Positions 15,216 to 47,830 of a stretch of DNA of 64,000 bases are shown in pieces; position 1 is the first letter of the stretch, and the number at the start of each line of letters is the position of its first letter. Location: NCBI RefSeq assembly GCF_040954645.1, contig NC_092806.1:75022141-75086140 (forward strand), written 5' to 3'. The notes below the pieces were generated by a model. It was not told the DNA's origin. It did no database searches and saw nothing but the letters and a program-made list of their open reading frames with translations. This DNA is from Diabrotica undecimpunctata. Taxonomy: Eukaryota; Arthropoda; Insecta; Coleoptera; Chrysomelidae. The translations under genes and the position numbers were made by a program.

Positions 15216-15502
15216 TGTAACGAAATAGCCCATCTCCGATTCGTGGTACGTGTCACAATTCTTAGAAGGATAAATCTAGAATATTCAAGTGTTGGCACTT
15301 TAATAGCGCCCGTCTTCGATGCGCTTTCGAACGAGAAAAATAGAGGTGGACTATTCCAGAATATTCTAGCACATAATAACTTGTATATATAAGTACCTCC
15401 GATATTAGCTAAGTTAGTTGATAAGATATAATCGTGCTGTAAACTTATAAATAAATATATTTATATAAATTAGAACCGCTCGTTTTATTTAAAAACGGTA
15501 CA
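15216..15502 (+). repeat. 5' LTR of Gypsy element A
   Basis: 287 bp, TG...CA. A TATATATAAG promoter box lies at 15384-15393 and AATAAATATATTT near the 3' side could serve as polyadenylation signal. The primer-binding site follows after one base: TGGTGTCA at 15504-15511, an 8-base match to tRNA-Leu 3' ends, after which it diverges. Confidence 0.93.
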
Positions 15503-15675
15503 GTGGTGTCACGGTGTGAGGATAATTGATTTATTTCAAAATAAATTCAGCAGTGACTTTTGAAAAAGACTTTTGAACTTTTGAAAAGTATTGTTCGTCG
15601 GGAACATCCGCGTAGTTCGGTAGTGATCTTTGTACGAAAGAACATTTAAAAAAGTACGTGTGTGCCTGACCAAAG

Positions 15676-16761
15676 ATGCTGATAGTAGAACTTTCAGTAA
15701 AACAGTTGCGTGAGCAACTAGAAGAACGCGATGAAGACTGCAGCAGGTCTAAGAAGATCCTTCAAGAACGACTGAAGGATATTCTCAACAAGAATGGAGA
15801 TGACCTAGAGACATTCCAGTTCCAGTCAGCAGAAGAAACAGTTTTACCGAAAATAAAAAATGTGTCTCAAATGATCGAAGTAACTTCTAGAAAAAATGAT
15901 AATAAATTCGAAAATGCTTCTAGAAGATTCGACGAGAAATTTGAAGAAATTTCTAGAACATTCGATAAAATAAAGAAAAATGTAAACGACGTAGAAGAGA
16001 AGATCAAACAGCTAGAGAGCATGATAACTAAAACTAAAGTGCTACCACCAATTAATGCAGTCGTTTTAGATTCTATAGTGAAAGAAGAATCACCTAGAGA
16101 TGAAACGACACATCATATGAGATTCAAATTGCCATCATTTGATGAAAAATCTTCTTGGTCCATAAACCTTAGACAATTTGAAGCTATTGCGACAGAAAAT
16201 AATTGGACAGAACAAGAAAAGGCTGTTTCCTTGACTGCTACTTTACGAGGTGATGCTGCAGATATCCTAAGATCGATTCCTAAGGGTCAGGAAAAATGTT
16301 ACCAGACCTTGGTCAGTCGACTAGACAAACGTTATGGAGATGCCCATCTACAACAAGTCTACAAATCACAACTAAGAAGTAGAATTCAACGGGCAAGTGA
16401 AAATGTGCAAGAGTTTGAAGCAGATGTTGCTCGTATAGTGCGGTTAGCTTATCCAGAAGCACCAGACAGCATTTTGGAAGAAATTGCTGTAGATATCATC
16501 GTCAATTGGTTAAAAGACAATGAATTACAGAAAGCTTTACGACTAGCAAGATCGAAAGTTCTAGATGAAGCGCTCGCTATTATCTTGGAACATGAAACAG
16601 CTAGTCAAACTTCACGGACCCATCTAGTAAGAACCATTGATGAAGACGACGAACCAAACGATGAACGTCTGAAAGAAATGGTACGAAAAATAGTTCGTAA
16701 CACGATACCGAAGAGTCACGAAACCAAATGTTATAATGGTGGCGACGTAGGTGTTATATAA
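15676..16761 (+). pseudogene. Gag of Gypsy element A: SAP domain, coiled coil, capsid, broken zinc knuckle
   Basis: 361 codons from ATG. Residues about 3-38 (VELSVKQLREQLEERDEDCS, then LQERLKDIL) fit a SAP helix-extended-helix DNA-binding domain. Residues about 60-115 are a charged coiled coil with an 11-residue rhythm (NKFENASRRF, DEKFEEISRTF). Residues about 150-310 are a Ty3-type capsid (SSWSINLRQFEAIATENNW, LTATLRGDAADILRSI, RYGDAHLQQVYKSQL, RLAYPEAPDS). The end, CYNGGDVGVI, is a ruined CCHC knuckle with Cys and His both lost just before the stop. The rest of the nucleocapsid and the protease are deleted. Confidence 0.85.
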
Positions 16762-17482
16762 TATTATAATTTAAATTCGCCGTAAATTGTAAGAAAATAA
16801 TACAACAGTCAGAAAGCTAGAACAGATCAAACACCAGGCTGGAAAAAGTCATTCAAATGATGATGCCCAGTCAAGACGGCCATACAGTGCAAATTGTAAT
16901 CACTGTCTTAAATTAAGAGAACGACTTTGCCCCGTGAGAACTACTATCATTAATGATCAACGGCAGCCCCAACAGCTACAAGACGCTCAAGCAGATGATA
17001 CATGTATAAAAAGAGTATTAGATTGGATACATCGAAGTAAGAGACCTACTTGGCAAGACATTAGTGCATGTAGTCCAGCAGTCAAGTCTTACTGGAGCCA
17101 ATGGAATTCCCTAGTGCTAAAAGATGATCTTCTGTACAGAACCTTTGAGAACGATGATGGTACAGAATCTAAGCTTCAGTTGATTGTACCTAAAAGTAAA
17201 GTGTCATAATTATTACATCAGTTGCATGCCGGTGCATCAGGTGGACACTTTGGTATTACGAAGGCTCTGCAAAAGGTTCTATTGGTTGAACTGTAAAGAT
17301 GATGTAAGAAGATGGTGGCGGAAATGTGAACTGCGCAACCAGCAATGGTGCAGTTGGTAAAAAGAGGGCACCCATGAAATAGTACAATATTGGTAGCCCT
17401 ATGGAAAGAGTAGCAATTGACATCGCAAGTCCACTTCCAGAGACAAATGATGGAAATAAATATATCCTGGTAGCCATAGATT

Positions 17483-17658
17483 GGAGACCTTACGAAAGTA
17501 AACGACCAAGAGGAAGACCACAGATGAGATGGGTTGATGATATTAAAAGAATAGACGGAACAAATTGGAAATATGTTGCTCAGGATAGAGACCGATGGAA
17601 GGAGTTGGGAGAGGCCTATGTCCAAATATGGACGACAGAAGGCTAAGAAGAAGAAGAA
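17483..17658 (+). mobile_element. 5'-truncated LINE insertion inside the integrase of element A
   Basis: A 176-bp insert encodes RPRGRPQMRWVDDIKR, the common C-terminus of RTE-like insect LINEs, then DRDRWKELGEAYVQIW, a stop and a (GAA)n tail. The target duplication is GCCATAGATT (17473-17482) against GCCATGGATT (17659-17668), 9 of 10 identical. This is a secure example of target-primed insertion into the retrotransposon after it had settled. Confidence 0.9.
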
Positions 17659-17944
17659 GCCATGGATTATTTTACGAAATGGACTGAGGCCTATGCGACA
17701 CCAAATCAAGAAGCTGCTACCGTTGCAGAGGTACTGGTTAAAGAATTCTTTAGCCGATTTGGTGTTCCCTTGGCGATCCACTCCTATCAAGGGCGAAACT
17801 TCGAGTCAACCTTTTTCCAAAACGTTCGTAAATTGATTGGTGTCAATAAGACTAGAACGACACCCCTGCATCCTCAATCAGATGGAATGGTCGAGAGAAT
17901 GAACCGAACGATGGGTAAACATCTGTCCAAAGTTGTATCAGAAC

Positions 17945-17974
17945 ATGCTGGTCCCAAGAGATTGGGACCAGCAT
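17945..17974. repeat. Perfect 13-bp palindrome with 4-base loop
   Basis: Arms ATGCTGGTCCCAA and TTGGGACCAGCAT with loop GAGA. The right arm is the normal integrase sequence (compare element B near 46090). The left arm replaces normal sequence, as after a short template switch. Confidence 0.95.
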
Positions 17975-18292
17975 ATTTATTTATTCCGAATGGCCCACCG
18001 CTCGGCCGTGAATGAAACTACAGGCTAGACTCCAACCTGCCTGATGTTAGGTCGTGAAGTTTGTTTGCCTTGCGACCTAGAGTTTGGCTGCAGACTTTCT
18101 GAAGAACATGTTGCAAGCGAAGAATATGTCGACCGCCTGAAGTTAAAAATGAACAACATTCATGAACTTGTCCGACAACACATCCAGTTAGCCAATGACA
18201 GAATGAAAGATCAATATGATTCTCGATGCAAGAATGAAAACTATGAAGTAAGTAATCTTGTTTAGCTTTATAATCCACAACGCCATCGAGGC

Positions 18293-19078
18293 TTGTCTTC
18301 TAAACTGCAAAGACAATGGGAAGGTCCGTATGAAATTAAAAAGAGAATAAATGACGTAATATACCGAATTAAGAAGTTGCCGAAAGGTAAATCAAAAGTA
18401 GTTCACATAAATCGTCTTGCATTTTATGCTGGCTTAAATGAAACAGAAGAAGCACGAATCCTTCAACATGAGATCAAAGATGGCCGGCGACCAAGCTTTA
18501 ACGAATTTATGTCAAATTATGCAGAGAGAAAGAGTGCTAGATTCGGCGTGACCACAGAAGTTCAGCAGGATCTTTTTAGTGTTCCGCATAACGTCTCTCT
18601 AGCCTACTGTGTTGCCCAAGATCTTGAGATGACTAAAGGAATCTCATCCGTATTTTATAAGAAGTTCGGTCGTTTGGATGAGTTAAAAAATCAGCAGCCT
18701 AAAGTTGGAAGAGTACAGAGATTAGAAGATGGTTCTCGATCTTTGCTGTATATGGTGACCAGGAAGTCGTATACAGACAGGAAAAGCTACGAGGATATAT
18801 GAAGTGCTCTAGCTAATTTGAAGAAAATCGTGTGCAATTATGACATCAAGAATTTGACCTTACCCAAGATAGGCCATGCACTTGTCAGAAGCATGCTTGA
18901 AGTGATCTTCCGAAAAACCGGCGTACGAATTACTGTGTGTTGCATTAACCTGAAGAGATCGTGTCCTTCAAAGTCAGTAGACTGTTATTTCTTCTTGAAG
19001 GGTTTATGCAGAGCTGGAGAGTTCTGCAAATTCCGCCATCCTGGGCCTACATCTAGAGTTACTAATCGGGACGCTTAG
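18293..19078 (+). pseudogene. C-terminal extension of Gypsy A: GPY/F module, TARG1-like macrodomain, CCCH finger
   Basis: The frame 18293-18802 starts with the integrase GPY/F module (QWEGPYEIKKRINDVIYRI). From about 18542 it becomes a macrodomain of the TARG1/OARD1 type: QQDLFSVPHNVSLAYCV, MTKGISSVFYKKFGRLDEL, NQQPKVGRV, LLYMVTRKSYTDRKSYED. After a nonsense codon (TGA at 18800-18802) it resumes at 18818 with LTLPKIGHALV and EVIFRKTGVRITV, the last helix and strand. A finger CYFFLKGLCRAGEFCKFRH (C-x7-C-x5-C-x3-H, 18983-19039) ends the protein. The TARG1 catalytic Lys is Arg here (VTR), and the loop carrying the catalytic Asp is deleted. The fold is likely real but the copy is not enzymatic. 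Assignment is by eye. Confidence 0.8.
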
Positions 19079-19095
19079 ATCTAAGAGGGCAGCAG

Positions 19096-19381
19096 TGTAA
19101 CAAAATAGCATATCTCCGATGCGTGGTACGTGTCACAAATCTTAGAAGGATAAATGTAGAATATTCAAGTGTTGGCACTTCAATAGCGCTCATCTTCGAT
19201 GCCTTTTCGAACGCGAAGAATAAAGGTGGACTATTCCAGAATATTCTAGACATAATAACTTGTATATATAAGTAGCTCCGATATTAGCTAAGTTAGTTGA
19301 TAAGATATAATCGTGCTGTAAACTTATAAATAAATATATTTATATAAATTAGAACCGCTCGTTTTATTTAAAAACTGTACA
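19096..19381 (+). repeat. 3' LTR of Gypsy element A
   Basis: 286 bp, matching 15216-15502. It is preceded by the polypurine-type tract AAGAGGGCAGCAG (19083-19095) and followed by GTAC, the target duplication. Confidence 0.93.
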
Positions 19382-19385
19382 GTAC

Positions 19386-31967: not shown

Positions 31968-33200
31968 TTAAAATTCTTGAAGGTGAGTCATAGGAAGAGG
32001 ACACAGTTTAGCAATAGAGCGAACGTATAACCCTTCAGGAGTTCTGACCTTAACAACTCTTACCTTGTTGTCCTTTCCCGGATATGTCTCAACTACCCGT
32101 GCTATAGGCCATTTGAGAGGAGGCGAGTTTTCGTCCTTAAGCAAGACGAGATCATCAGGCTTTATGCCTACCTGAGGAGTGAACCATTTAGGTCTATTTT
32201 GAAGCCTATTAAGATAATCGCGAGTCCAAACCTTCCACATATGCTGCTGAATTCTTGTGCATTTATTCCACAAAGACAATTTATTTTCTTGAATATCAGA
32301 GAGATCGAATTCAGGATAAGACATTAAGTTAGATCCAATAAGGAAGTGTCCGGGAGTAAGAAAGGAAAAATCGGACGGGTCGTCTGAGAGCGCACAGATA
32401 GGGCGTGAATTGAGCACTGCTTCAATCTGCGAAAGTACAGTGGATAGTTCTTCGAAAGTAAAATTGGAGTTACCCATTATTCTTACGAGATGATATTTGA
32501 AGCTCTTTATGGCAGCTTCCCAAATACCACCGTGGTGTGGTGAGCGTGGAGGGATAAACTTCCATTGAATTTGACATGAAGTAGCGAAAGAGCGAATAGA
32601 TTCAGAGGTATCACCTTTGAGAAGCAACTCATAAAGTTCTTTCAATTGATTTTTCGTACCTAGAAAGTTGGTGCCATTATCGCTGAAAATGATACTCGGA
32701 TTACCCCTTCGGGCGATAAATCTTTTCAGAGTCAATAAGAACGCTTCAGTAGAAAGACTGGAAATTAATTCCACATGCACGGCGCGAGTAGCTAAACATA
32801 CAAACACTGCCATATAGGCCTTAGTAAGGGGAGCTCTCTTGAGTTTAGAGGTCTTGATTGGAAATGGACCACCAAAATCAACTCCAACGTTTATAAATGG
32901 ACGTGCAATTTGAACTCTTTCCCTCGGGAGAGTAGCCATGATTTGGGAAGCGACTTGTGCGTTAAAACGGTAACAAGTGAGACAATTTTGTATTATACGT
33001 TTGATTTGTCGAAGACCATCAAGAGGCCAGAATTTCAATCTAACATTGGACAGTGTATTTTGAGGGCCAGAATGTAGAAGTCTTCGATGTTCTCGGGTAA
33101 GTAATAAATTGACAATATGTGATTTTGAGGGCAACAGTAGAGGGAATTTCTGATCATAAGAAACATCTGAAAAGAGAAGACGACCGCCTACTCGTATCAT
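31968..33200 (-). pseudogene. BEL integrase
   Basis: 410 codons, in frame with the upstream polyprotein but separated from it by the TAG at 33207-33209. It starts IRVGGRLLFSDVS. The HHCC zinc region reads HRRLLHSG...CLTC. The catalytic core has VGVDFGGPF (Asp 1), IIFSDNGTNFLG (Asp 2) and GGIWEAAIKS (Glu), all intact. It ends with the BEL-type C-terminus PDDLVLLKDENSPPLKWPIA, and KVRTPEGLYVRSIAKLCPLP. Integrase inserts the cDNA into the genome. With one substitution in the stop codon the polyprotein would be continuous, so the lesion looks recent. Confidence 0.93.
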
Positions 33201-33206
33201 TTGAGA

Positions 33207-36200
33207 CTAATCTAGAAAGGGATTCAATTTACGAATAGACTTATCGTTAAGCAGACGATTATCCATTAAAAATTGGATTTCCGAATTGAAGAAATGAGAC
33301 TGGGTCAATTTGATAATCATTAACTCAGAACTAGAGAGTTCATTTGGAGTGAGAGGACCTGTACGTCTATGAGACTTAGCTCTTACATTGTGAATAAAAC
33401 GAATGCAGTATGCAAAAGCTCTCTGAAGTCGAGTGAAACATGAAAATTTGCAGAGGGCATCATACACTTGTGAATCTGGTTTTCTGATCAGATGAGTAAC
33501 CCTTTTGAGTTCAGGCAGTTCATCAACATTAATACTCGAAGGACCATTATATACAAAGAGGTTGAAATCAAAGTGTGGATCTGACAAAAATTGAGGACCA
33601 TTAAACCAAAGATCACAATCAAGCAACTGCAAGGGTGTAGCACCACGAGATAATATATCCGCAGGTTTGTCTTTCGATCGTACATGTCTCCATGTATGGT
33701 TGGAGGTGAGTTCTTGAATTTGAGTTACTCTATTGGCTACAAAGGTAGACCAACGAGAAGGGTGTGAATTAATCCATGCGAGGACGACTTCGGAATCTGT
33801 CCATAAATTGACAGAATTTATCTGAGATTGGGATGGAATCAAGACAGAAAGAATCTTCGTAACAAGATTAGAGAGTAATAATACTCCTAGAAGTTCTAAT
33901 CGAGGAAGAGTCACAACTTTTACAGGACTAACACGACTCTTTGAGGAGATTAGATTGCAAGAGATAAAGCCATTTTCATGTGATGTTCTTAAATAAACGC
34001 AAGCACCATACGCGCTAAGACTTGCATCCGAAAACCTATGTATTTGAGTACTTGTTACATTGCTAGAATTTTGCAGCAACCTAGGAATCTTGAGATTGGA
34101 GAGGTGAGGAAGTGTTTGTAAAAATAGATTCCATTGTGTAAGCAAATTTGGACTGAGGTGGTCATCCCAATTCGACCCTTCTAACCAAATCTTTCTCATA
34201 ATTAATTTAGCAGATACCACTACAGGGTTAATCAATCCGATAGGGTCATAAATGGAAGCAATTAAAGAAAGAACTTCTCTTTTTGTATAGGTATCCTTAA
34301 CGGTAACCTTTGGCACAAGAACTGAAAAATGATCGGAGTGAGAATTCCAACATAGGCCGAGAATTTTGTTCGTGTTATTTTCAGGATTGATTACATAACT
34401 AGCTTCATTAGAGATATGAGAAATACCTGCGAGAAATTCAGGTGAGTTTGCACACCATTTATGAAGCGAGAAACAAGCGAGGTTCAAACATTCGGTTAAT
34501 TGACGATGAATTTCGAAGAGTGTTTCAAAATCGTTACAGCCATACAGCACATCATCGATATAACAGCAATTTAAAAGAGCATCACTAGCCAAGGGAAATT
34601 TGTCGGAATGTTTTTGAGCTAATTCCTTAAGACATCTAGTGCTGAGAAAACCGGAGTTATTTAATCCATAAGTGACAATTTCAAGTTGAAGACATTTCAA
34701 ATCCTCTTGAGGTGAATCACGCCATAAGATGTTCAACAGAAATACCTGTTCGGGATTTACTCGAATTTGTCTGTACATATGACATAGATCTGCTACAATA
34801 CAGTATTTAAATAATCTAAAATTTATCAAAATATCGAATAATTCGCGTTGTACCGTATAACCAGGAAGCATTATGTCATTAAGACTTAGATTTGAGGTAG
34901 TTTTCATACTGCCATCAAAGACAACACGCAACTTATTTGTTACGCTATCCTTTAAAACGCAATGGTGAGGAATAAAGTATTTTAAATCAGAGTGAATATT
35001 TCGAGTGGAGAGAGGCACATATCTGCAATGTCCAAGTGCAATATATTCATGAATAAATTGTTTATACTGTGCGTATAATTGATCTGACTTGATCAGTTTC
35101 TGTTCGAGGTTTAGGAATCGCTTCTTTGCGAGGAAAAACGATTCGCCCAATTTTTTATATTCGTTGGGAGATTTGAAAGGAAGATCTACTTGGAATCTAC
35201 CAGATAATAATATTTTAAGTGACGATTTAAAAATATCTTCGGCTTGTTGCTCCGAAGAAGTTAGGATTTTTGGAGTACAAGTAGAAGACGAGATTTCTTC
35301 TATTTCCCAAAACGACCGTACGAGTGAATCGGTATTTTGAGTTTGAACGAACAAGGATACTTCATTTCGAGGTTGAGTATTTTCTTGAATGTTAAGTATA
35401 GAATATGAGTCAATTGACCCAGATGATTGAGGTACATTTCCACCTACAAGATAACCGAGATGAGTATTTGTTAAGGTAGGAAGATTAGGGCCTAATTTTA
35501 TTAACCCGTAAGTAAGTAAGTCGAAATAAACATCTGCTCCAAGCAGCATTTGAACTTCGGCAGGAGTACAAAATTCTGGATCAGCTAGGTGAATGTTTGG
35601 TGGAATTTTGAGAGCATTAAAATCCAATGTAATTTGAGGGTGCTTACAAGTGATGGTTGGGAGAATCGCACAAGAAAGTGTAAAATGTTTTGTGGGATTA
35701 ACATTTGAGAAAATATTTAAATCCACCATTTTATTCGACGTCGAACAGATTTCGGATATTCCAGAAATTTGAAGACTTTTTGTGTAAGGAATACATTTCA
35801 AGCGACTTGCTAATTCCTCAGTGATAAACGAAAGCTGACTAGCTGAGTCTGTAAGGCAGCGAACCTTAACGGGATTATTATGAGAATCATAAATTGTAAC
35901 ACATGCTGTTTGGAGTAGAACCTCCTTTTTGCCTGAGAGTGTAGAGAGAGATGATGCTCGGTAGACATCATTAGACTGAGATTGATTTGCTATTCGTGGG
36001 ATTGCAGGTGAACTTGAAGTTTCGCTTTGAGTATTGGGATCACGAGATACATTAGAGTGAGTACGAGAATTTGGAGTATCATGCATATTGTGAGACTGGC
36101 GAGTATTTTGAGAATTATGATTTTCTTGTGAGTCTTGAGAGTGACGAGTGTTTTGGAAATGAGTGTTTCTAGTGGGTAGACTACGAGAATCTTGATTTGT

Positions 36201-37034
36201 TCTGAAACGAGAACTATTTGAGTTATGAGTAGAAGCGTTAGAGAAGTGGAGCAATGTGTGATGTCTCCTGTTACATTTAGCGCAATTTGACGCAGAGGTA
36301 CATGAGCTTGCTGAATGACCACTAGCCAAGCAGTTGAGACACGCTTTCTTTGCCTTGACAGTTTGAAAACGCTCATCTTCAGACATATTTAAGAATTCCC
36401 GGCAAGTGTATATTTTATGGGAGTTATTTTGACATAAGAAACATTTAAAATACTGATTATTACTACTATACTGCAAATTATTGCTAACTGTGTTAAGAGA
36501 AGTAAAACGAGAAGATTGTTTTTGTTTCGGAGAATGAGAGTATTCAGGAACAAGATTTTCGAGAATTTTGCATTTTCTTTCAATAAATTCAAGGAACTCC
36601 ATTAAACTTGGGAGTTTGTTTATATTACGCTCGGTTTCAAATGATCTTTTAGTATTATAGTCTAATTTTTGAGTAAAGAGATTGATGAGAATTAAATCAG
36701 TGAGTTGATTCGAGATGTTGAGGTTTTCTAAGGCAGCGAGATGGCTTTTAATTTGAGTTAAGAAATCCCTTAGAGCATGTGCATTGGGTTTTGTAATGAG
36801 TGGAGCATTTAATAAACTGTTCAAATGACTGTTTACTATTAAATATTTATTTTCAAATCTATTGCATAAATTTTGTATTGCAATTTCAAAATTGGAATCA
36901 ATTATTTCTAGATTGTCAATTAACTTTAACGGTTCATTCCTTAACACTGATTTGAGATAAATAAGTTTTTGAGCATTAGATAACTGTTTATCATTTGTTA
37001 TTAATTTGGTGAAAACATCAAAAAAGCTGGCCAT
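33207..37034 (-). pseudogene. BEL Gag-protease-RT-RNase H polyprotein
   Basis: 1275 codons. Residues about 1-170 are the Gag DUF1759-type helical region. Cys/His knuckles lie at about 198-265 (CFLCQNNSHKIYTC, CLNCLASGHSASSC, CAKCNRRHHTLLH). A Ser/Asn/His-rich spacer follows. The protease at about 390-420 has TDSASQLSFITEEL, with DSA where DSG or DTG is usual. RT at about 690-900 has RVVFDGS, VADLCHMYRQI and CYIDDVLYG, all three Asp intact. RNase H at about 1045-1170 has FSDASLSAYGACVYL and WTDSEVVLAW. It ends NPFLD then TAG. The N-terminal 156 residues of Gag are in another frame (37471-37001), with the shift at an A-run near 37018-37025. Confidence 0.95.
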
Positions 37035-37471
37035 TCTGAGACTTCGCCCGAGAAAAAAGGTATTTTTAATTCTGGCAACTTTACATTTTGAATTGTGCTA
37101 ACAGATGGTATTACATTTGTTACAATAGGTTGAGTTTGAACTGGTTTTGCAGATAATTGCGTGATTTTCTCGTACAAATATGAATCTAAATTATAATACT
37201 GTTCTTCAACTATGTCTCTATCTGAACAATATTTATCAAAATCTTCTAATTCAAGTTCCTTTTGTAGGTTGAGATACTCGCGATAAGTTTCATTTAATAC
37301 ATTTTTGCGTGCAATATATTGACCGCAATCTAAAACTACATTTTGGTTTTTTGAGACAAATGTTTGAATTCTAGTAATACAAGCTTTAGTATGCCCTCTC
37401 AATTTTATAATTTTTGCAACATCAGTCATTTTGAACGTGAGAAAAAATAATACAAATTTTAAATACAACAA
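37001..37471 (-). pseudogene. BEL Gag N-terminus (frame-shifted from the polyprotein)
   Basis: The real start is probably the ATG at about 37429 (MTDVAKIIKLRGHTKAC). It is a helical, charged region ending KLPELKIPFFSGEVSEWPAF, the usual BEL Gag entry. A 1-base indel in the homopolymer at 37018-37025 moves the frame into the downstream polyprotein at the Asp-Val-Phe segment. Confidence 0.88.
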
Positions 37472-41300: not shown

Positions 41301-41578
41301 CCCTTGCTTTCTAATAAGTGACACGGAATAAAGGCTTTTAAATTTTCTTCCTTTAGTTTACTATTATTTATAAAACTATTTGCATCATGTATAGAAGCTA
41401 CTACTGCCTTAATTATGTTCCTACCAATTCCCCTTACTTGAAGGATATTAGAAATTCCTAGTGTTTTGTACAAAATATGACCTATTGTAATTGGATGTAA
41501 GCGACCAAGATCAGTGTTATCTATCCTTTCAATATACACAAAAATATTTTCAAGATTATACTTTGTTAGAGAAGTTAT
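38393..41578 (-). pseudogene. I-like LINE: ORF1 knuckles, RT and RNase H, interrupted at both ends
   Basis: Minus strand, reading downward. 41578-41147 is the ORF1 body (YNLENIFVYIERIDNTDLGR, GHILYKTLGISNILQV). 41060-40860 holds gag-like knuckles (CLRYGHISKQC, CRENKDENHSC, CIHCKSTEHVSVSKNC). RT follows: LNPFTREELDFALTN, APGYDDIKYLMLKKLP, QSYRPISLICVLKTLERII (40665-40201). 40108-38963 gives NGLPQGSVLSPFLFNLYTAD, IVQYADDLCIYT with the catalytic Asp pair, and LDYGCILYGSAS. RNase H is at 38836-38430 (IISDSLSVLNSL, FVWVKAHIALEHNE, then VDMLAKKSVKNGL). The AP endonuclease expected between ORF1 and RT is absent. Frameshifts occur near 41050, 40640 and 40150. Confidence 0.88.
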
Positions 41579-42014
41579 TGTTACGATAAATTCTGACCCA
41601 AAACCGTAAATAATTTTTATTACTAATATTCTCATTCATTCACGTATTTTCTAGGTAATACCTACCTGACACACGATGGGTCCCCCTCCGCTATAAAAAC
41701 AACAATCGAACTTTCTGGAGACGAGCCGATATAAAAATACCAGTTTGCCGTTACCATTCGCCGCTCTGTATAGTCGAGACGGCCATCGACTTTTCTAGTC
41801 TAACAGTATTGGGTATATAACAGGACCGTTTTGAAGAAAACAGGCGGTCAAAAAGAAGCTCGCGCTCGCGTTTAAATTGTAACGTCCGATAGATAAATTA
41901 TGTAATTATTAGTCAGATAAATTATTGTACAGTGGTTTAATAAATTGATATAAATTATCGTGTTTTAGTAAATTAAAATAAGAACAATAAATTAGAATTA
42001 ATAAAGACATAACA
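41579..42014 (+). repeat. 5' LTR of Gypsy element B with tRNA-Leu primer-binding site next to it
   Basis: 436 bp. A TATAAAAA box lies at 41730 and AATAAAGACATAACA closes the LTR, giving a polyadenylation signal. After a one-base spacer, TGGTGTCAGAAGT at 42016-42028 matches 13 bases of tRNA-Leu 3' ends. Confidence 0.93.
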
Positions 42015-42040
42015 GTGGTGTCAGAAGTAAAATTGTGAAA

Positions 42041-43364
42041 ATGACGACGATTTATGAGCTCACAGTGACGAATTTAAGAAGACATCTCGAGGACAGAGAA
42101 TTAGCTTCTACCGGAAAAAAGGCTGAGTTAGTCCAACGACTAAAGAACGCTTTGGAGGAAGATGGGTTTAATCCAGAAACGTATATATTTGAAGATAAAT
42201 ATGATGCTGTCATCTCGTCGATTTCGAAATTAGAGAACAAAGTTTCTGACGATATTTCGAAAGTTTCTTCTGATGTGGCCAAAGTTTCTGGTGACATCGC
42301 ATCATTGGAAAACAAAGTTTCTGGTGACATCGCATCATTAGAGAACAAAGTTTCTGGTGACATCGCATCATTAGAAGACAAAGTTTCTAACGAGATTTCT
42401 TCTCTGGAAAGCAAAGTTTCTGCTAACATCTCTTTGGAAATCTCTAAAGTCACTTCTGGGATGTCTGCTCTTGACGATAGAGTGTCTTCGTTAAAAAACC
42501 AAGTTGTTGCCGATATGTTGGCCTTCAAAGAAAAGATAAGGAAAAGAAGCTGGAGGAAACAGGGACAGCAGAGAGAAAAACAATCCAATTACAGCAGAGA
42601 CAAAAGAAGACAATACGAAATGTAAGTTGGAAACACGGCCGAAATTTGAAGGAAGTGGAGGTTCTGTTCATGTCAAAGTCACAACTTTCGACGGAAAATC
42701 GTCATGGAACAACTATATGAAACAGTTCGAATCAGCTGCAAAAGCGAATGGATGGTCTGAAAAAGAAAAGGCTGTAAACCTGACTATCGCTCTTCGAGGA
42801 GATGCCTTAGATGTGCTTCAGACCATAGCCGTAGAGGAGACGGATGATTTTGAACAACTCAAGAAGAGGTTAAATATGCGATATGGTCACGGACATTTGG
42901 AGCATGTATATCAGTCACAGCTTAAAAATCGAAGACAAAAGAAAGATGAGGCTCTTCAAGAATATGAGGTAGATATTGCCAGATTAGTACGATAGGCTTA
43001 TCCAACAGCTCCCGAAGACATGATGGACAAGTTGGCCGTTCAAACGTTTATTGATGGTCTTCGTGATCATGAAATGCAGATAACACTACGATTAGCTCGT
43101 CACAAGACGCTGGTTGATGTCTTATCCGCCGCCCTCGAATACGAGTCAGCTACGCAGGCCTCTGGCGGATACAGTAAAGTTAGGACTGTAAAAGAGGAAG
43201 GAGATGAAGATAAACTTGACCAGCTCGTTAATATGATGAAAAGCATGACATACAAGAAAACGAAGACCATAAGATGCTGGAATTGTGGGGAAGCAGGACA
43301 CGTACGAAGTTCCTGTAAGCACCCTAGGTACGACGCAAATCAAGAAACTCACTCAACTATGTAG
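42041..43364 (+). pseudogene. Gag of Gypsy element B: SAP domain, 11-residue repeat coiled coil, capsid, CCHC knuckle
   Basis: The ATG at 42041 is the likely start. Residues about 3-38 (TIYELTVTNLRRHLEDRE, TGKKAELVQRLKNAL) fit a SAP DNA-binding motif. Residues about 60-160 form a coiled coil built on the unit KVSGDIASLEN. After a frameshift near 42600-42627 comes the capsid (FDGKSSWNNYMKQFESAAKA, NLTIALRGDALDVLQTI, MRYGHGHLEHVYQSQL). It is cut by TAG at 42993-42995 and resumes with FIDGLRDHEMQITLRLARHK. The end is one intact knuckle CWNCGEAGHVRSSC. SAP plus capsid plus CCHC in the same order as element A shows a family trait. Confidence 0.9.
42281..42412 (+). repeat. 33-bp minisatellite inside Gag
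   Basis: Four consecutive 33-bp units; the first three are nearly identical (AAAGTTTCTGGTGACATCGC...) and the fourth is diverged. Each encodes 11 residues, so copy-number changes lengthen the coiled coil without breaking the frame. Confidence 0.95.
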
Positions 43365-43393
43365 ATGGAGAAATAAATGGTAAAAAGCATACG

Positions 43394-43729
43394 TTGTTGG
43401 TGGATACCGGAGCGACCAGAACCATTATACGCCCGACAGTTATAAACAGCCGTAAGAAACTGTTACCAACGAGGTTGCGACTTTGCACCGCTACGGGTGA
43501 AAATGCCAACATTCATGGAGAAATCCAGATACAATTAGGAATTGGAGCAGAAAAGTTCGTCCATACTGTTATAGTTGCTGACATCGAAGAGGATGTTATA
43601 TTAGGAATGGACGTAATGAATACGCATGGATTCCAATTGGATTTTAAGAATAAGGTAATCAAAGTTGGTAACGAGGAGGTATTTCTTCATCCACATGATG
43701 ACAACACTATGCAAGCAGCCGTTAAATAA
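43394..43729 (+). pseudogene. Aspartic protease of Gypsy element B
   Basis: The active site is intact (LVDTGATRTIIRP), followed by LRLCTATGENANIHGEIQI and ADIEEDVILGMDVMNTHGF, where ILG is the conserved second landmark. It would cleave the polyprotein. A stop at 43727-43729 separates it from the downstream Pol frame, which restarts in another frame at about 43740. Confidence 0.9.
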
Positions 43730-43739
43730 GATACAGTCC

Positions 43740-46410
43740 TGCCTGCGAGAAGTGAAACAATCATAGTAGCGCGGCTACAGGGAATTGTGGACGAAGGGAC
43801 ACCCGTTATGATGAAGCCTTGGAACCATGACGACGAGGTTGGCCGAGGAATCATAATTGGAAAGGAATTGGTGACTGCGGCTAAAGAAATTCCTGTGAGA
43901 CTTATCAATGTCAATGACTACCCAGTAAATATCAAGAATGAGACAAAAGTAGGAACTTGTGTACCTATGACATCCATAATCCGTCAGACGACAACATCTG
44001 ATAATTCCAACGACAAATTCGACGAAATGGTTGCAGTTGCTGGACAGTCTCTGAATCAGATTGAAAAAAGGAAATTAAGGGAATTTCTTCGGCAGTATCG
44101 TGATATTTTCGTACCGAAAGGAGGAAAGACGGGAAGAACTACCGTTATTAAGCATAAAATTGATACTGGTAATGCTAAGCCAATTCGTCAAACAGCTCGA
44201 CGATTACCACAGGCGAAAAGAGAGGAAGCTGAAACGATTGTTCAGAAAATGAAGAAAGACGGGGTGATAGAACCTTCTACGAGCCCATGGGTCTCTCCGG
44301 TGGTCCTGGTTAAGAAGAAACACGGAACGACGAGGTTCTGTGTGAAACTTATGGAAAATGTGTTGAGAGGGTTATCTTGGAAAAGCTGCCTGGTTTATCT
44401 AGATGACATAATCGTCTTGGTTGAGACATTTGAAAACCATCTGAAGAATTTAGAAAACGTTTTTATTCGACTTAAAGCTGCGCAATTGATGTTAAACTCC
44501 AAGAAGTGCCAGCTATTTCAAGGTAAAGTCAATTATCTGGGTCATATATTCAGTAAAGAAGGAGTGGCCGTGGATAAGGGAAAAATCGATTCCATTAATA
44601 AATGGCCAGAACCAACTGACAAACATCAAGTGAGAAGTTTTCTTGGACTATGTACTTATTACCGCAGGTTTATTAAGAAGTTTGCAGATATCGCTTACCC
44701 ACCAACGCGACTTACAGAGGAAGCAAGAGAATACCGCTGGGATACAGACTGCCAAAATGCCTTTGAGACCTTAAAAAAGCATTTAATAACAGCACCAATT
44801 TTAGGGTATCCACTGCCAGAAGGAGAGTTCATGTTAGATACAGATGCAAGTAATGTGGGAATTGGAGGAGTGCTGTCTCAGATTCAAGGAGGACAGGAAC
44901 GAGTTCTTGGATATTTTAGTAAAGTTCTTTCGAAACCTGAGCGGAATTATTGCGTCACGAGAAGAGAACTTCTAGCAGTAGTGAAATCAGTAAAGCACTT
45001 CTACCAATACCTCTATGGAAGAAAGTTTTTAATCCGAACCGACCATGCTGCCCTTAAGTGGTTGATGCAGTTTAAGAATCCAGAAGGTCAGATAGCCAGG
45101 TGGATCGAACGACTCCAAGAATACGATTTCAAGATTGAGCCCCGGGCCGGAGTTAGCCACAGAAACGCTGATTCTCTTTCCAGAAGGCCATGCCCAACAG
45201 AGTGTTCCCACTGCAACAAAACGGAATCCAAGGAAGCAGCAGTGCTAAGAACGACGATGGTCAACGACGACTGGACGCCTACTAAGATAAGGGAAGAACA
45301 AGAGAGAGATCCAGTTATACAGAAAATCCGAAAATGGAAAGAGGAAAACCGTCGACCACCTTGGCAAGAAATATCAAACCTATGCTCAGTAGTTAAGACG
45401 TATTGGGCCCAGTGGGACTCATTTATCATCGAAGATGGCTTGCTCAAACGAGTCCTGGAAAATGATGACGGTTCAGAGAAGAGAAGACAGTTGGTGATCC
45501 CAAAGAGCAGAATAGCCGAAGTACTTCGTCAGTTACATGACAGTCCATCAGGAGGGCATTTTGGTGTAAAGAAGACCCTTCAGCGAATTCGGGAACGGTT
45601 TTATTGGATGAACAGTTCCGACGATGTAAAAGACTGGTGTAAGAAATGTACTATTTGTGCTACGAGTAACGGGCCTTATCGAAAAAGGAGAGCCCCTATG
45701 AGACAATATAATGTTGGAAGCCCGTTAGAAAGAATAGCTTTGGACATTGCTGGGCCATTTCCAGAAAGTGAAAATGGAGGCAAGTACATGTTGGTAGTAA
45801 TGGATTACTTTACTAAGTGGGTCGAGATTTACGCACTTCCAGACCAGAAGGCCGCCACCGTTGCAGATAAGTTGATCCAAGAATATATCAGCCGATTTGG
45901 AGTGCCTTTGGAGATCCATAGTGACCAAGGCAGGAACTTCGAAAGCGATCTATTCCAAGGAATACTTGATAGACTAGGCATGAAGAAAACAAGAACTACA
46001 GCATATCATCCGTAATCTGATGGTATGGTAGAACGGATGAATAGGACATTTGGCAAGTATTTGACAAAGATGGTGTCCAATCATCAGCGAGACTGGGACC
46101 AATATCTTCCGTTCTTTACAATGGCCTACAGATCTGCTGTTAACGAATCGACAGGCCAGACACCAGCCAGAGTCCTATTCGGACGCGAGATGCGACTACC
46201 TTGTGATCTAGAGTTTGAGTGTCGACCTGGAGAAGATGTAGCAGGTGAAGATTATGTGATCGAATTACGAAGAAGAATGGACAATGTACACGAGTTGGTC
46301 TGTTCCCACCTCCAGATCGCTAGTGACCGAATGAAGAAACGGTACTATACGCAAGCCGAAAAGGGATGTTTTAAGAAGAACGACAAAAGCGAAAAGGTTG
46401 TTCTCCCAAG
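43740..46410 (+). pseudogene. Pol of Gypsy element B: RT with in-frame deletion, RNase H, integrase
   Basis: The long frame 43787-46015 begins with the linker (PVRLINVNDYPVNIKNETKV, FLRQYRDIFVPKGGKTGRT) and RT fingers (SPWVSPVVLVKKKHGTTRFC). It then jumps in frame at about 44342 to LMENVLRGLSWKSCLVYLDD, losing roughly 80 residues with the first catalytic Asp. YLDD remains. RNase H has LDTDASNVGIGGVLSQ, RRELLAVVKSVKHF and FLIRTDHAALKWL. Integrase has HDSPSGGHFGVKKTL, CKKCTICA, LDIAGPFPE, IHSDQGRNFESDLFQ and, after a TAA at 46013-46015, MVERMNRTFGKYL with the Glu. A frameshift near 46370 leads into the GPY/F module. Confidence 0.93.
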
Positions 46411-47226
46411 TTGCAGCAGTTTTGGGAAGGTCCATACCTCATTATGGAGAAGATCAACGATGTCATCTACCGAATAAGCAAGATTCCGAGAGGAAAGCCG
46501 ATGATAGTACACCATAACCGGCTGGCGTATTTCGAAGGTGACCACGACGTAGATGAAGAAGTGGAAGTAAACCAAGTCCAAGATATGTTTGGGATCACGT
46601 TTGAGGAATTCATGGGTGCCTATGGAGGTACCGGTAAAGCAAGACATGGTGTTACCACTGAAGAAAAGCAAGATCTACTCGCGCTCCCCGATGACTACTC
46701 GCTGGCCCTTACCATCCCGGCCAGTATCAAAGACGCACCAGGGTTGGCATCCGTCTTTCGAATGAAGTTTGGTCGAGTTGCAGAACTTCAATGCCCAGTG
46801 CCAGCTTCCGGTAAAACCTTGAAACTCCAAGATGTATCGCGTTACCTTTTCTACCTGGTAACAAAAGACACTGCCCGTGACCAACCTACCTACCGAGATG
46901 TATGGGAAACCTTACTTCAGTTGAGAGAGCACGTACTAGAGTCCGACGTGCAAAAGTTAGCCATGCCAAAGTTGGAGTGCCGCCAATTAGATTGGAGGGT
47001 TATCCGAAATATGGTGGAGATCTTTAAAGACACCGAAGTCCAGGTGTTAGTCTGTTGCAATCCGCATAGTTACTGGTACGGAGAGAAAACCGTCCCTTGT
47101 CATTTTTATACAACTGGAAGTTGTAAAAGAGGGTCCAGTTGTCGATACCAGCATACCGTTCCAGTTCCTGTCCCGACAAGGTTCCAGGAGGAACCATCTT
47201 TTAAGAGGGGGGCAATGTTACAATAA
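46411..47226 (+). pseudogene. C-terminal extension of Gypsy B: GPY/F module, TARG1-like macrodomain, CCCH finger
   Basis: An uninterrupted frame of 271 residues. Residues 4-40 are the integrase GPY/F module (FWEGPYLIMEKINDVIYRI). Residues about 80-217 (46648-47061) read as a macrodomain of the TARG1/OARD1 group: VTTEEKQDLLALPDDYSLAL, DAPGLASVFRMKFGRVAEL, LFYLVTKDTARDQPTYRDV, LAMPKLECRQLDW, EVQVLV. The Lys equivalent to TARG1 Lys84 is present (LVTK, residue 152). The Asp125 loop is two residues shorter and the Asp is not clearly retained. Residues 230-248 (47098-47154) form a CCCH finger, CHFYTTGSCKRGSSCRYQH. The frame ends inside the start of the 3' LTR. It would be made as the tail of the Pol polyprotein. 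Confidence 0.85.
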
Positions 47227-47653
47227 ATTCTGACCCAAAACCGTAAACATTTTTTATTACTAATATTCTCATTCATTCACGTATTTTCTAGGTAATACCT
47301 ACCTGACACACAATGTTTCCCCCTCCACTATAAAAACAACAATCGAACTTACTGGAGACGAGCCGATATAAAAATACCAGTTTGCCGTTACTATTCGCAG
47401 TTCTGTCTAGTCGAGACGGCCATCGACTTTTCTAGTCTAACGGTATTGGGTATATATAACAGGACCGTTTTGAAGAAAACAGGCAGTCAAAGAGAAGCTC
47501 GCGCTCGCGTTTAAATTGTAACGTACGATAGATAAATTATATAATTATTAGTCAAATAAATTGTTGTACAGTGGTTTAATAAATTGATATAAATTATCGT
47601 GTTTTAGTAAATTAAAATAAGAACAATAAATTAGAATTAATAAAGACATAACA
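47216..47653 (+). repeat. 3' LTR of Gypsy element B
   Basis: 438 bp. It is preceded by the polypurine tract AAGAGGGGGGCAA (47203-47215). It is followed by TTAT, the target duplication. Confidence 0.95.
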
Positions 47654-47830
47654 TTATGTTAAATCCTCTATTTTTTAACGGTATCACGTTTTCTTCAGGC
47701 TCCATTACTTCACATGACCTAACAATATTGTTAGAGGCACTTAAAAGTGTCCTCGAGTCAATGCCAGTCCCCATAGGGGAAAGTAACAAATTTTTAAGCA
47801 CTATGCGAATATGTTTTTATTAAATACTAC
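47654..47830 (-). pseudogene. I-like LINE ORF1, continuation beyond Gypsy element B
   Basis: The minus frame IRIVLKNLLLSPMGTGIDSR, TLLSASNNIVRSCEVM and PEENVIPLKNRGFNI runs straight into the frame at 41578 once Gypsy B and one TTAT copy are disregarded. It therefore marks the same LINE, near the ORF1 N-terminus. The 5' end of the LINE is not found. Confidence 0.75.

Follow-up and report, generated by a model that had tools for sequence, protein, structure and literature searches.

Chromoviruses are Ty3/gypsy long terminal repeat (LTR) retrotransposons in which a chromatin-reading chromodomain is fused C-terminal to the GPY/F module of the integrase. The human macrodomain protein TARG1 (also OARD1 or C6orf130; structures 4j5r and 4j5s) is a cellular mono-ADP-ribosyl hydrolase of protein and DNA. 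Lys84 of TARG1 carries out the attack on the ribose, leaving an intermediate that Asp125 resolves (PMC9967889), and the K84A variant is inactive (PMC8501950, PMC10933786). We describe a Ty3/gypsy element, element B, in a 64,000-nucleotide stretch of Diabrotica undecimpunctata NC_092806.1 (the window, positions in which serve as coordinates throughout), whose polyprotein ends in a TARG1-like macrodomain followed by a CCCH zinc finger.

The last open frame of element B (46375–47226) encodes the GPY/F module, a linker, the TARG1-type macrodomain and the CCCH finger, and ends within the 3′ LTR. Membership of the Ty3/gypsy group follows from TG...CA LTRs flanked by a target-site duplication (TSD) and from the order gag–protease–reverse transcriptase (RT)–RNase H–integrase with GPY/F, recovered piecewise using Pfam; several frames of this copy are broken. 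A preliminary description had proposed the macrodomain–CCCH fusion from the sequence, and the identification is confirmed by the agreement of sequence, predicted fold, other copies in the same genome and other beetle species. The macrodomain shows sequence homology to TARG1, and its predicted structure adopts a macro fold with TARG1 as the best match (a second predicted structure, P0021, has a mean predicted local distance difference test score, pLDDT, of 67). The profile search recovered the finger, for which zf-CCCH (PF00642) scores above its cut-off with C-x7/8-C-x5-C-x3-H ligands, but not the macrodomain: Macro (PF01661) has no match in the element B tail at E ≤ 1 and close relatives also remain below the curated cut-off. 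Of the 41 related proteins reaching that far, 33 have a CCCH pattern after the macrodomain, and the nearest solved structures to the finger belong to the RNA-processing proteins CPSF4 and RBM22. Scanning the tail frame against Pfam at E ≤ 1 revealed no chromodomain, the feature by which chromoviruses are recognized.

In the 1.74 Gb genome searched, all 150 scored places match the tail protein of element B with at least 97% identity. These places were drawn from 5,792 first-look candidates, a number which, like the 17,116 of the integrase search, counts candidates and not copies. Because about 115 of the 150 listed places (hand count) hold an open frame of 1,400–1,843 residues, the tail and pol share one frame at these places, and the same 191 residues recur in 25 of the 29 tails cut out besides the window's. 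Two ends were fetched for each of ten copies: the LTR pairs are 99.3–100% identical in nine (the tenth gave no LTR alignment), and a 4-bp TSD is readable in eight of the nine aligned pairs (CTAT, ATAC, ATAT, GTAT, ATAT, ATAC, TTAT and ATAT). The near-identical LTRs and the TSDs therefore indicate very recent movement, and these copies show that the family of element B (hereafter the window's family) is a lineage of beetle Ty3/gypsy elements active until recently. Its TSDs are nearly all NTAT or ATAC (eight copies of the L043–L062 set and the window copy), a site preference. Using a cellular OARD1 protein as query, we detected a second macrodomain element family in the same genome, family B, to which 11 of the 12 loci cut belong. 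An internally shortened element with a decayed family B tail is also present in the window, where the two sister families lie 23 kb apart.

The closest named proteins to element B are those of the western corn rootworm, Diabrotica virgifera virgifera. Among the matches listed in our protein searches, the integrase–macrodomain–CCCH fusion occurs in Diabrotica virgifera, Gonioctena and Callosobruchus, in Aromia, Molorchus and Exocentrus, and in Harmonia (leaf and seed beetles, longhorn beetles and a ladybird, respectively), as well as in metagenome contigs; one of these searches covered the best 120 of 141 matches. Matches devoid of a macrodomain include spider- and fly-named elements, and eight macrodomain-less relatives inspected singly end shortly past GPY/F. 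An unrooted tree of the integrase C-terminal domain, built from 55 of 62 rows after leaving out seven with no anchor motif, places 16 macrodomain-bearing rows on one side of a branch (SH-like approximate likelihood ratio test, SH-aLRT, 92). In the macrodomain tree, also unrooted and computed with DarG left out, 26 element rows and 28 cellular rows fall on opposite sides of a branch supported at 91/92, and the element macrodomains adjoin animal OARD1 in an alignment-based comparison. Both trees fit a single acquisition of the macrodomain, a single origin being the simplest tree. The data show that in a lineage of beetle Ty3/gypsy elements the integrase was extended at its C-terminus by a captured cellular macrodomain of the TARG1/OARD1 type together with a CCCH finger.

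The sole non-element row among the 12 loci of the OARD1-query search, L031 (C3:100933735-100936014, minus strand), is the only insect OARD1-type row of the macrodomain tree and lies on its host side, adjoining the branch that separates element from cellular rows. Its 760-residue host-like frame is disordered at the N-terminus, continues with a macrodomain of TARG1 type in which both catalytic residues are present and then has a weak second macro-like stretch, with no Pfam match at E ≤ 0.01. As no insect OARD1 appeared among the best 120 of 2,087 matches in one search, L031 is not placed as the donor. One search of viral contigs returned no macrodomain match and another a single locus, L066, at 26% identity. 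A marine protist transcript (P0106) combines a NADAR domain with one full and one partial TARG1-type macrodomain, that is, two kinds of ADP-ribose eraser in one protein.

The active site of the window's family retains the Lys84 equivalent and has lost the Asp125 equivalent together with two residues of the loop. The preliminary description had noted the kept Lys and the shortened Asp125 loop in the window copy; the absence of the Asp from all 29 other tails fetched as best matches to the window's makes its loss a trait of the whole family and rules out decay of one copy. Because the loss is common to the family, the window's macrodomain is probably a relative of TARG1 rather than a TARG1-type Lys/Asp hydrolase. 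Both catalytic residues are found in 34 of the 43 element macrodomains long enough to read, in 14 of 21 representatives after collapse at 85% identity, and in 17 of the 26 element rows of the tree, the other nine forming one clade (support 94/93). Since the complete dyad survives in further lineages of this element, the ancestral tail was probably a Lys/Asp hydrolase. Within the dyad-less clade, Lys without Asp is found in the window's family and in its relatives from D. virgifera and metagenomes; family B has Arg at position 84 and Asp in 31/31 own-genome copies; P0027, a D. virgifera protein of family B type, has Glu at the Asp125 position; P0032 has Arg and Asp; and P0004 and P0011 have Arg and Gly, neither dyad residue. 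By analogy with the inactive K84A variant of TARG1, Arg at position 84 is probably inactive. A Lys-only site is no proof of inactivity, since DarG, whose site has the Lys but not the Asp, is nevertheless able to remove ADP-ribose from DNA (PMC9411070). Residues on the ADP-ribose side are conserved, with the adenine-side Asp20 in 21/21 representatives and Gly43 in 20/21.

Selection on the macrodomain of the window's family was evaluated with 20 of 149 other places ranked by integrase similarity, hand-picked down the list. Fifteen of the 20 tails were compared codon by codon, the five dropped (c2, c5, c10, c14 and c15) having indels or being out of register; c10 and c15 look intact. Two kept tails contain stop codons (c1, macrodomain; c13, finger part), which were left out of the variant count, a choice slightly favourable to a reading of constraint. 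Separately, inspection by eye of all 20 tails found 15 free of premature stops and frame changes. The macrodomain carries 9 nonsynonymous (N) and 12 synonymous (S) variants, a ratio of nonsynonymous to synonymous polymorphism (pN/pS) of 0.22 (p = 8e-4), and variants common to at least two copies number 1 N and 4 S (ratio 0.07, p = 0.01). For comparison, the integrase piece has 22 N and 36 S (ratio 0.16; 25 of 29 copies ranked by tail). Integrase-ranked copies were used for the macrodomain because ranking by the tail biases its value low, and the 2 N and 12 S obtained from tail-ranked copies were set aside on this ground. The family B macrodomain has 67 N and 50 S (ratio 0.37), or 7 N and 12 S (ratio 0.16) among variants common to at least three copies, its 31 copies having been selected by rank of similarity to a distant OARD1 protein, which leaves a milder bias; the integrase ratio of 0.83 in this family was not used as non-homologous flanks are mixed in. 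Between species, the macrodomain and the integrase C-terminal domain change about equally (118/132 versus 117/127 and 116/134 versus 115/128). Given the low pN/pS in both families and the integrase-like rate between species, the macrodomain of both dyad-less families is under constraint comparable to that on a functional region of the integrase.

The preliminary description had tentatively suggested a counter-defence or target-tethering role. We propose that the tail would remain associated with the integrase within the pre-integration complex, where it would bind ADP-ribose, on host chromatin, on repair proteins or on ADP-ribosylated complementary DNA (cDNA). The macrodomain would then act as a reader on the integrase, guiding the complex to ADP-ribosylated chromatin or holding it there, and the CCCH finger would be a nucleic-acid grip. 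The analogy with a reader is suggested by the position of the tail directly past GPY/F, where chromoviruses carry their chromodomain. In lineages with Lys84 and Asp125, the tail probably removes ADP-ribose too, whereas in the two Diabrotica families, where the dyad is broken yet purifying selection persists, the retained function may be binding, or Lys-only chemistry as in DarG. Constraint after dyad loss thus favours reading in the Diabrotica families, and the intact dyad favours erasing elsewhere.

We assign a probability of roughly 0.4 to a binding tether being the main present role of the tail in the window's family, and several points weigh against it. We infer that the tail is carried along by the integrase and comes into contact with ADP-ribose, and binding, hydrolysis and targeting are all predictions; the shortened loop could weaken ADP-ribose binding, the protease may cut the tail off the integrase, and the chromodomain analogy is one of position. 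In the same 15 copies, the CCCH finger and the end of the tail have 16 N and 5 S (ratio 0.88), with no significant purifying selection, and the binomial p values take variants as independent, yet the copies share ancestry. Held more loosely is a wider proposal, in which the integrase of an animal Ty3/gypsy clade would carry an ADP-ribose module at the chromodomain's position, coupling integration or cDNA protection to host ADP-ribosylation, and in which the module of one beetle lineage would have turned from eraser to reader with the domain kept by selection. This turn would comprise two independent-looking losses of the catalytic pair, of the Asp in one family and by Lys-to-Arg replacement in the other.

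The tail could also act as a counter-defence eraser which, like TARG1 or DarG, strips host-placed ADP-ribose from element proteins, silencing factors or single-stranded cDNA and thereby protects replication, a possibility that we take seriously while doubting it. The dyad is intact in most element macrodomains, and DarG works in the Lys-only state of the window's family (PMC9411070); moreover, mono-ADP-ribosylation of KAP1 by SIRT6 silences L1 (PMC4695847), so removing ADP-ribose could pay. An eraser is hard to reconcile with family B, which has Arg at the catalytic Lys in all 31 copies and is still constrained, or with P0004 and P0011, which lack both residues. We know of no host transferase acting on such elements. 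Assembly or RNA handling, with the finger binding element RNA, the macrodomain serving as a scaffold or as a nucleotide or RNA binder and ADP-ribose being irrelevant, would account for the frequent CCCH pattern past the macrodomain and for the resemblance of the finger to those of CPSF4 and RBM22. We judge it unlikely, as the ADP-ribose-side residues Asp20 and Gly43 are kept, most lineages keep a catalytic dyad that is needless for a scaffold, and the finger is the less constrained half of the tail in the Diabrotica sample.

Were the tail a functionless host segment, captured and passively carried along, the loss of catalytic residues in one clade would be readily explained, but the tail keeps its frame in species from three beetle families, and this and the purifying selection in two element families make such a passenger very improbable. 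Hardly any weight is left for an artefact, be it chance resemblance, misassembly or an element inserted in a host gene: although the Pfam Macro profile gives no match and the window copy is broken, chance resemblance or artefact as an explanation of the tail is ruled out by the sequence, the fold and the in-frame copies elsewhere.

If the tail does act on ADP-ribose, ADP-ribosylation would form a layer of the host with which LTR retrotransposons have to deal by reading or erasing it. Beetles would provide a natural comparison, since lineages of one element differ in whether they keep both catalytic residues, the Lys alone, the Asp alone or neither. Both the action of TARG1-type macrodomains on nucleic acid in reverse transcription and the steering of integrase by ADP-ribose would be testable with small isolated domains. 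Annotators should be cautious, as numerous gene models in beetles that bear the names OARD1-like, C3H1-type or uncharacterized represent fragments of the macrodomain element. In the D. virgifera model LOC114337827 (P0006), the start of the macrodomain tail is spliced to a mariner-type-transposase-like stretch, by chimeric annotation or nested insertion.

Table 1. Features of element B and of the family B element in the window.
Feature	Position	Strand	Basis
TSD TTAT, 5′ side	41575-41578		sequence reading; matches 47654-47657
5′ LTR, TG...CA	41579-42014	+	direct repeat with 3′ LTR (95% and 97% identity in two ungapped blocks)
Primer-binding-site-like stretch, immediately inside 5′ LTR	42015-42032	+	position only
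gag N-terminal frame: SAP domain and coiled-coil-like 33-bp repeat	42005-42622	+	Pfam SAP E 1.8e-7
Retrotrans_gag piece, broken frames	42540-42992	+	Pfam E 4.4e-6
CCHC knuckle piece of gag, broken frames	42996-43361	+	Pfam E 1.1e-4
Aspartic protease piece	43328-43726	+	Pfam gag-asp_proteas E 4.5e-12
RT, RNase H and integrase (H2C2, core) to in-frame stop	43730-46012	+	Pfam RT_RNaseH E 1.3e-34, RVT_1 5.1e-11, Integrase_H2C2 3.1e-21, rve 3e-13
Remaining integrase core, pol frame, to point of frame loss	46016-46474	+	tblastn of P0027: 45698-46384, then 46384-47163
Integrase GPY/F (p58 C-terminal) module, tail frame	46429-46524	+	Pfam PF22938 E 3e-13, residues 19-50 of 46375-47223
TARG1/OARD1-type macrodomain	46669-47052	+	sequence and fold
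CCCH zinc finger	47086-47154	+	Pfam PF00642 E 1.2e-6 (283-residue frame), 7.3e-7 in P0001
Polypurine-tract-like stretch ahead of 3′ LTR	47204-47215	+	sequence reading
3′ LTR	47216-47653	+	direct repeat; contains tail stop codon 47224-47226
TSD TTAT, 3′ side	47654-47657		sequence reading
Second Ty3/gypsy element, internally shortened, family B tail	15216-19383	+	LTRs 15216-15504 and 19096-19383, direct repeats (91% and 99% in two blocks)
Decayed macrodomain-CCCH tail, family B (sister family)	18527-19114	+	tblastn 75% to P0027 tail, 203 residues; stop codons, and a stretch missing after GHAL

The gag of element B contains a 33-bp in-frame tandem repeat (42280-42430) after the SAP domain, forming a coiled-coil-like stretch, and a SAP domain is also found in P0062, an Aromia relative. 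The window further harbours a Bel/Pao element on the minus strand (31971-37097), the open frames of which (1,296 and 412 residues) encode Peptidase_A17, DUF1759, integrase and DUF5641.

Domain capture by LTR retrotransposons is already known. Among the matches listed in searches of open-licence PubMed Central (PMC) papers, none describes a macrodomain for a Ty3/gypsy element or its integrase; one of these searches, in which general transposon papers predominated, covered the best 20 of 13,545 matches. In orchid Ty3/gypsy elements, an AlkB N6-methyladenosine (m6A) demethylase active in vitro is encoded by a separate open reading frame (ORF) (PMC9289625). The likeness lies in the capture of a host-type eraser domain by Ty3/gypsy elements; the orchid case involves plants, an RNA demethylase and a separate ORF, whereas the beetle tail belongs to animals, to the pol frame and to a predicted ADP-ribose module. 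Epsilon-like endogenous retroviruses of fish, which are also reverse-transcribing and carry macro domain ORFs, are Retroviridae with the domain in an additional ORF (PMC4977317, citing Basta et al. 2009). Macrodomains of RNA viruses, including arthropod viruses (Kadipiro virus VP8 and thrips virga-like sequences in the BFVD database), come without an integrase, and sequence identity to the top viral match by structure is 31%. Among the BFVD matches, the closest viral folds are the TARG1-like macrodomains of Kadipiro virus VP8 and of several RNA viruses associated with thrips, which are nearer than the alphavirus ones. The macrodomain of DarG, the antitoxin of DarTG, carries out DNA-specific de-ADP-ribosylation and is ~20% identical to the element macrodomain, the likeness being restricted to the Lys-without-Asp state. 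Unlike TARG1, the element macrodomain belongs to the C-terminal end of a retrotransposon polyprotein, where it is accompanied by a CCCH finger, and in the window's family it lacks Asp125 and two loop residues. Compared with chromoviruses, the beetle element places a macrodomain and a CCCH finger where these elements have a chromodomain, with ADP-ribose as the putative ligand.
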